A stretch of 48,635 nucleotides of DNA, taken from NCBI GenBank assembly GCA_903927345.1, contig CAIYMO010000001.1, positions 1 through 48,635 of the forward strand, written 5' to 3'. Below, one piece after another: positions 47,619 to 48,315 of this stretch (position 1 is its first letter; every line of letters begins with the position of its first letter). The position numbers were made by a program, and so were the translations under genes. A model generated the notes under the pieces. The model worked only from the letters and a program-made list of their open reading frames with translations, was not told where the DNA came from and did not search any database. Source of the DNA: an uncultured Armatimonadota bacterium. Lineage in GTDB: Bacteria > Armatimonadota > Fimbriimonadia > Fimbriimonadales > Fimbriimonadaceae.

Positions 47619-47981
47619 ATGGCCCCAATCATCATTGATGTGAGTGGACGTCCTAGCCCATGGGCTAATGAACCCCATGAGGGCGCCTGGCGGCAAGCTA
47701 TCGCGACTCGTGCAAGAGAAGTCATCTCTGAACCTTACGAAGAAAACGTTCGACCTTCGCGGGTTGTCGTTGAGTTTAGATTGACGCCGCGAAGAAGAGG
47801 AGATTTGGACAATCTTGCTAAGCCAGTCCTTGACACACTTTTTAGGCAGTCTCGAAACTCGAAACATCCAGTGGCCTGCGTATTTACTTGCGATGACTTT
47901 CACTTGAGTGAACTAATACTCAGGAGATTTGAAGTCCCTGGTTTAGAGGAAGAGGGCGCAACTATCATCATCGAGTTCTGA
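47619..47981 (+). CDS. RusA-family Holliday-junction resolvase-like nuclease
   Basis: 120-residue protein matching the RusA fold. The metal/catalytic residues align with the family: D62-x-D64-N-x2-K68 in RRGDLDNLAKPVLDTLF (family D-x-D-N-xx-K), and D92-D93 in CDDFHLSELI, where RusA has the third Asp. RusA cleaves four-way DNA junctions symmetrically and is usually found in prophages. No other phage genes are nearby. The start lies 6 nt after TAATAG and 8 nt after CATAAT. It is divergent from the peroxiredoxin gene and points at the RNA with tRNA-like end. Confidence 0.75.
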   Translation: MAPIIIDVSGRPSPWANEPHEGAWRQAIATRAREVISEPYEENVRPSRVVVEFRLTPRRRGDLDNLAKPVLDTLFRQSRNSKHPVACVFTCDDFHLSELILRRFEVPGLEEEGATIIIEF

Positions 47982-48008
47982 GTAGAACCGTCCACTTCGC
48001 AAAAAAAT

Positions 48009-48265
48009 TGGTGGACCAGACGGGACTCGAACCCGCATGGCTTGGCCGATGACTCTTCGGAAAACTCGCTTCCCTACAGGATTTCACTGGGCGGAACTTC
48101 CCCGCCCTCGGCCCATACGGTGCCTTTCGGTGCTTCTGAAACCGGTCATCCACTCTTGTTTCGGGGAACGCCGCAACGCGGCTTTTGACCTTACTCCTCC
48201 AGCGCCAAGCTCTCTCGAACGCGCTCCACAGTTTTGCGTTGCCTATCCGTTTCGGCCACTGGCCC
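48009..48265 (-). ncRNA. RNA with tRNA-like 3' end and encoded CCA, unidentified (interrupted tRNA, divergent tmRNA or att remnant)
   Basis: On the minus strand the 3' end is a T arm GCGGG-TTCGAGT-CCCGT, then CTGGTCC, discriminator A and CCA, then a T7 run. A matching 5' half, GGGCCAG-TG-GCCGAAACGGATAGGC, lies ~230 nt upstream and pairs with CTGGTCC (one G-T pair); its D-arm-like part resembles tRNA-Ser/Leu. Between them are ~190 nt containing hairpins (GCCGC-GTT-GCGGC, GGGCGG ... CCGCCC). ATaGGC near the 5' side can pair with GCCAT directly before the T arm, as in tmRNA P2, but no tag ending in Ala-Leu-Ala-Ala is found. Identity is open. Confidence 0.35.
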
Positions 48266-48315
48266 ACTCAGACTTTGTAGGACGACCTGAGTGGCAGATT
48301 GTTCGCTCTGTAAGC

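Follow-up and report, generated by a model that had tools for sequence, protein, structure and literature searches.

Several described RNAs resemble, each in part, the RNA reported here. Transfer-messenger RNA (tmRNA, RF00023), the product of a stand-alone, single-copy gene, joins acceptor and T-arm ends to a large internal structured domain. YrlA, a bacterial Y RNA (RF02553), is a tRNA mimic associated with Ro60, and in the rsr-yrlBA-rtcBA operon of Salmonella a second RNA, YrlB, belongs to the Ro60 operon (PMC7790460). Class II tRNAs (RF00005) have the acceptor stem, U8, D-loop GG and T loop that are also present in our RNA, and some members likewise have a short hairpin preceding the T stem. 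Group I introns in tRNA genes form an insert between two tRNA halves.

The locus analyzed here, in an uncultured Armatimonadota bacterium, shares these features but matches none of the described systems as a whole. Unlike tmRNA, its RNA has a normal D arm and a hairpin at the anticodon position, contains no tag frame that we could find, has no match to the tmRNA model and coexists with canonical tmRNA in the same genomes. It shares some loci with Ro60 (L123, L104 and L153), as YrlA does, but its own ends form an acceptor stem, it has no YrlA match and no evident conserved Ro-binding motif, and it occurs in Bacilli, where Ro60 was not found. It may resemble YrlB as a second RNA beside Ro60. It differs from tRNA in having no 7-nt anticodon loop and an insert of ~80-180 nt, and from a tRNA with a group I intron in that there is no match to the intron core, splice geometry is unsupported and a conserved pairing holds the insert to the loop.

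The window, that is, the whole 48,635-nt stretch of DNA analyzed, is contig C1 of a genome of 3.1 Mb. Its RNA gene is made up as follows, with the basis of each assignment given in brackets where it is not evident.

48009-48265, minus strand: RNA gene of 257 nt with tRNA-like ends and an inserted domain (homology and covariation)
48259-48265, minus strand: P1, the 5' strand of the acceptor stem, GGGCCAG (7 of 7 pairs with 48013-48019)
48241-48256, minus strand: D arm with a GCC/GGC stem; the GG of its loop corresponds to tRNA positions 18-19 (sequence)
48236-48240, minus strand: 5' strand of P2, AACGC, at the position of the anticodon stem (pairs with 48218-48222)
48223-48235, minus strand: loop of P2, AAAACTGTGGAGC, 13 nt; AACT at 48230-48233 is the 5' strand of the pseudoknot (AACN/NGTT complementarity)
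48218-48222, minus strand: 3' strand of P2, GCGTT (permutation tests)
48152-48217, minus strand: accessory region with a GC hairpin, GCCGCGTTGCGGC, at 48170-48182 (comparison of homologues)
48142-48150, minus strand: 5' strand of P3, GATGAC (48145-48150) plus CGG (48142-48144) (long-range helix)
48122-48143, minus strand: core block 1, GGTTTCAGAAGCACCGAAAGGC (conservation)
48089-48107, minus strand: hairpin GGGCGG-GGAAGTT-CCGCCC (3 of 6 pairs doubly changed)
48059-48077, minus strand: core block 2, GTAGGGAAGCGAGTTTTCC; AGTT at 48063-48066 is the 3' strand of the pseudoknot (conservation and complementarity)
48048-48060, minus strand: 3' strand of P3, CCG (48058-48060) plus GTCATC (48048-48053) (helix with the 5' strand of P3)
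48020-48036, minus strand: T arm, GCGGG-TTCGAGT-CCCGT (sequence)
48009-48019, minus strand: 3' strand of the acceptor stem, CTGGTCC, then discriminator A and encoded CCA (sequence)
48001-48007, minus strand: run of seven T 3' of the acceptor end, a possible termination signal (sequence only)

An earlier note on this DNA had singled out an RNA of about 257 nt with tRNA-like ends. All the features that it named were found on the minus strand, where the RNA occupies 48009-48265, and the T arm, acceptor, CCA and T run, as well as the distant 5' half with its D arm, had been correctly placed. The 8-bp hairpin that it put at the 5' boundary, CCACTCAG/CTGAGTGG, does exist in the sequence (48264-48271 with 48287-48294) but, being absent from the sister genome, is not part of the RNA. 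The RNA has U8, and its CCA is followed by an A and then by the seven T, at which no terminator was called.

The accessory region (48152-48217) is found in Armatimonadota copies and is missing from Bacillota and most phage copies; the hairpin at 48089-48107 is missing from the short phage form. Within core block 1, GCACCGAA is present in 70 of the 72 members compared, and the T loop reads TTCGAAT or TTCGAGT in 67 of the 72.

Thermodynamic folding of the single sequence is unremarkable (z = -1.15, not significant); the evidence for the fold is comparative. For the acceptor stem, the 5' end of each homologue was located from the D-arm and loop motifs without the use of pairing; U8 and the D-loop GG were conditions for finding members, whereas acceptor pairing was not. 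All seven pairs form in 71 of the 72 unique homologues, across 24 different 5' strands, compared with full pairing in 4.7% of cases when acceptor strands are swapped among members. In its acceptor stem, D arm and T arm, and in U8 and the D-loop GG, the RNA conforms to a tRNA. Permutation tests on 21 non-redundant members support the remaining helices: none of 2000 permutations was as good as P3 family-wide, one of 5000 was as good as P2 (9 of 2000 with a slightly shifted strand window), and none of 5000 equaled the pairing of AACN in the P2 loop with NGTT in the core. The last of these reads AACT/AGTT in the window RNA and AACC/GGTT, AACA/TGTT or AACG/CGTT elsewhere, with a double change to AGCG/CGCT in member L180 and violations in three members (L046, L094 and L150).

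Applied to seven copies from Armatimonadota, the full structure is paired in 94.5% of cells. Compensatory changes on both sides affect 15 of its 47 pairs (no more than 3 once the structure is slid), and covariation is 0.381, against 0.151 after shuffling. Within Armatimonadota alone, double changes affect 3 of 7 pairs in P1 and 4 pairs in P3. A hairpin first considered for core block 1, GGT..ACC, gave way to GG..CC pairs that extend P3, which RNAalifold and covariation favor. The comparative data show a composite fold that consists of the acceptor stem, the D arm, P2, a pseudoknot between the P2 loop and the core, the long-range helix P3 and the T arm, with P3 closing the inserted domain.

This fold bears directly on the readings that the earlier note had proposed. 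A tRNA gene interrupted by a group I-like intron would account for the tRNA halves at either end, and ARAGORN, when introns are allowed, reports a tRNA-Pro(tgg). We nonetheless consider an intron highly improbable: splicing needs a 3' anticodon strand before the T stem, and the P2 hairpin already uses the partner of such a strand. Re-pairing of the anticodon stem at that place is no better than chance (2599/5000 permutations), and the hairpin at the P2 position has, across members, a loop of 8-15 nt with a conserved AAAAC and not the 7-nt loop of a 5-bp anticodon stem. The loop-core pairing joins both parts of the molecule, and the genome already has tRNA-Pro genes with anticodons GGG, CGG and TGG as well as tRNAs for all amino acids. 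The note had itself recognized no intron core elements, and Rfam 15 gave no group I or group II match at E<=10.

The tRNA-like ends would likewise fit a divergent tmRNA acting in trans-translation. G3-U70, a feature of alanine acceptors, is present in six members but missing in the other 66 of the 72. No tmRNA model matches over the gene, the sole trace among members being a 17-nt T-arm fragment in L078, and the insert varies in length, with no conserved frame seen by inspection. Moreover, a canonical tmRNA is encoded elsewhere in the genome (C19:18112-18464, 156.6 bits, tag ANNNFAFAA), and phage Comrade also holds one. A role in trans-translation is hardly credible on these data.

The remaining suggestion, a 3' tRNA fragment left as an att site, was rejected, the gene being complete with both tRNA ends, which co-vary. 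Similarity to other loci extends over no more than 32-33 nt, at 91% identity. A comparison with G005 and G010 as empty sites was not informative, as homology ends before the RNA site; no tRNA is called nearby. Two fragments at other loci do have the look of att sites. At C55:10502-10533 (L003:1501-1532) lies a tRNA-Lys(CTT)-like 3' fragment without a 5' half, which resembles the att site of an integrated element; at C19:54086-54190 (L009:1501-1605), far from the true tmRNA, lies a fragment like a tmRNA 3' end, possibly also an att site.

The earlier note would have regarded the RNA as ordinary had it clearly matched a described RNA family; covariance-model scans with Rfam 15 gave no such match. 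At gathering thresholds no family was assigned. At E<=10 the window RNA had only unrelated chance matches, and the members scanned had only such matches and T-arm fragments; ARAGORN in normal mode and the tRNA model (RF00005) did not call the gene either. Rli28, considered on account of Listeria plasmids (PMC9484302), was dismissed, as the Metabacillus copy, ~92% identical to the Listeria copies, has no match to RF01492. The genome, plasmid and phage records inspected carry no RNA feature annotated over the RNA. The searchable literature holds no description of it; subscription papers and preprints, which may contain one, lay outside that search. We are confident that the RNA represents a new family of conserved, structured, non-coding RNAs.

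The family is widely disseminated. A DNA search of 100 related genomes reached several genera, with homologues 72-93% identical to the window RNA. In the sister genome the RNA is 93% identical and its flanks 81-83%; in other genera the RNA is still 78-80% identical, whereas the flanks fall to only 20-42%. Named homologue-bearing contigs of the same genus are labeled Fimbriimonas (Armatimonadota). Among public genomes, 70 stretches contained the exact core pattern GTAGGGAAGCGNGTTNTCC, as did 12 stretches of viral contigs. Part of the genome matches are due to chance; the remainder, mostly from Bacillaceae with additional ones from Oscillospiraceae, Acetivibrio and Armatimonadota, display the whole architecture of tRNA 5' half, core, T arm and matching acceptor. 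Genomes were scanned with a covariance model (R1) that spans the core and the 3' half of the RNA; matches below ~40 bits, most of which are ordinary tRNAs, were set aside. Of 291 genomes from Armatimonadota, 10 had clear matches, above 45 bits, and of 80 genomes from Bacillaceae, 22 had matches at E<=1e-8. The two Clostridia with the RNA are an Oscillospiraceae and an Acetivibrio genome.

The RNA is also carried by 18 plasmid records (Listeria, Cytobacillus, Peribacillus, Bacillus and Priestia), by 22 Streptomyces phage records and by further IMG/VR viruses; in Streptomyces phages it is located inside tRNA arrays. There is one copy per bacterial genome, and two copies are present in one phage contig. 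Members range from ~150 to 260 nt, with the insertions and deletions in the insert, and CCA is encoded in the Armatimonadota and Clostridia copies and absent in those of Bacilli and phages.

No protein neighbor is common to the whole family, which points to a trans-acting gene; synteny is conserved at the clade level only, for example, chromosomally among eight Bacillus genomes that are related. In Bacillaceae, the occurrence of RtcB shows no link to that of the RNA (4/33 vs 3/27). Downstream of the RNA in the window, a small ORF (47619-47981) has a weak RusA match below the cut-off (E 0.0098), and its DNA is conserved in G018.

Association with Ro60 is apparent in some lineages. Ro60 is present in 8 of 10 RNA-positive and 9 of 28 RNA-negative Armatimonadota (Fisher p = 0.012, with no correction for kinship). 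In Armatimonadetes 55-13 (L123), the RNA lies between YrlA-like RNAs and Ro60, ~25 nt downstream of one of the former and ~0.5 kb upstream of the latter, and in Acetivibrio alkalicellulosi (L104) it lies 2.3 kb downstream of YrlA-Ro60. The distance is ~3 kb in phage Alone3, a few kb in the phage contig L153 and at most 4 kb in several actinophages, and all five named RNA-positive phages tested encode Ro60, which occurs in 344 of 50,697 phage records overall. The genome of the window encodes Ro60 and a YrlA-like RNA on C15, not adjoining the RNA gene. Conversely, none of 26 RNA-positive Bacillaceae tested has Ro60, ten Ro60-bearing phages do not contain the RNA, and of 84 viral Ro60 loci just one has the RNA within 10 kb. 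The Bacilli and the viral loci rule out Ro60 as an obligatory partner; it is an associate of the RNA in Armatimonadota, one Clostridium relative and actinophages.

Conceivably, the RNA is a second, non-canonical, Y-RNA-like ligand of Ro60, which would bind the RNA and deliver it, or the targets of the RNA, to a nuclease or repair enzyme, with another protein taking this part in Bacilli. The proximity in L123, L104 and Alone3 and the five Ro60-encoding phages would fit, but on balance we regard such a ligand as unlikely. YrlA (RF02553) matched no member tested, although YrlA-like RNAs were detected nearby, and the ends of the RNA make an acceptor stem, not a Y-RNA stem. In Y RNAs, the Ro-binding motif in the terminal stem is of the GNCGAAN0-1G type; this type was seen in 3 of 72 members and GGNCCGANG in 2 of 72. 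Furthermore, the tested Bacilli have no Ro60 and most viruses with Ro60 do not carry this RNA.

The reading that we prefer, and in which we have moderate confidence, is that of a stand-alone, trans-acting, non-coding tRNA mimic whose conserved inserted domain separates the anticodon-arm position from the T arm, and which would act on the tRNA-handling machinery. By analogy with established tRNA biology, its ends are probably matured as those of tRNAs are, by RNase P, 3' processing and CCA addition, for which the acceptor stem, T loop and D-loop GG would make it a suitable substrate. The RNA could show a tRNA-shaped surface to the tRNA-handling machinery. In the surveillance or repair of tRNAs it might serve as a decoy, a competitor or a sensor, together with Ro60 and Y RNA in some lineages. 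The action on this machinery itself, suggested by the shape of the RNA and a partial gene association, we propose tentatively. Decoding of codons does not seem to be involved, since the core ties up the anticodon-type loop and acceptor identity varies freely; this variation also makes it improbable that one particular amino acid is of importance.

More specifically, a decoy could shield real tRNAs against anticodon nucleases or other defenses that cleave tRNAs, which would explain the location on plasmids and inside the tRNA arrays of Streptomyces phages; the pseudoknot, which ties up the anticodon-type loop, is compatible with this. We doubt such a shielding role, however, because synteny is also chromosomal in the eight related Bacillus genomes, the loop is conserved rather than diverse and there is no linked nuclease. 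The compact invariant core blocks GCACCGAA and GTAGGGAAGC, together with the pseudoknot, might alternatively belong to a novel ribozyme or self-processing element in a tRNA scaffold. This is very unlikely, given that the group I, group II, RNase P and other ribozyme families of Rfam were all without a match, that the splicing prediction fails and that no reaction site is known.

If the tRNA mimic is the correct interpretation, the family might constitute a novel class of RNA in bacteria and phages, in which the tRNA body would give entry to tRNA-handling pathways and the pseudoknotted insert would be the effector, with Ro60 as the partner in some lineages and a different one in Bacilli; this generalization is a tentative one. 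It is rare for a structured RNA to be well conserved over two phyla, plasmids and phages and yet stand outside Rfam 15 and the inspected annotations. Culturable carriers, namely, Bacillus groups and Streptomyces phages, make the function directly testable, and if the RNA indeed works with or beside Ro60, it would provide a handle on the role of bacterial Ro60 and of its tRNA-like RNAs.

Y-RNA-like sequences were observed at several Ro60 loci. Just upstream of the Ro60 gene of the window's genome, C15:18334-18464 (L074:85-215) is a sub-threshold YrlA-like RNA of 39.5 bits. Several such sequences with common GGGCCGA..CTTGCCC ends precede Ro60 at L123:3700-5030; two from this array score 49 and 29 bits with the YrlA model, below its gathering threshold of 69, which indicates that the Rfam model misses Y RNAs of Armatimonadota at threshold. 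In Rhodococcus phage Trina, a pseudo 'tRNA-OTHER' annotated at 84277-84485 (L289:1-148), directly upstream of Ro60, has two T-arm-like stretches and is probably Y-RNA-like.
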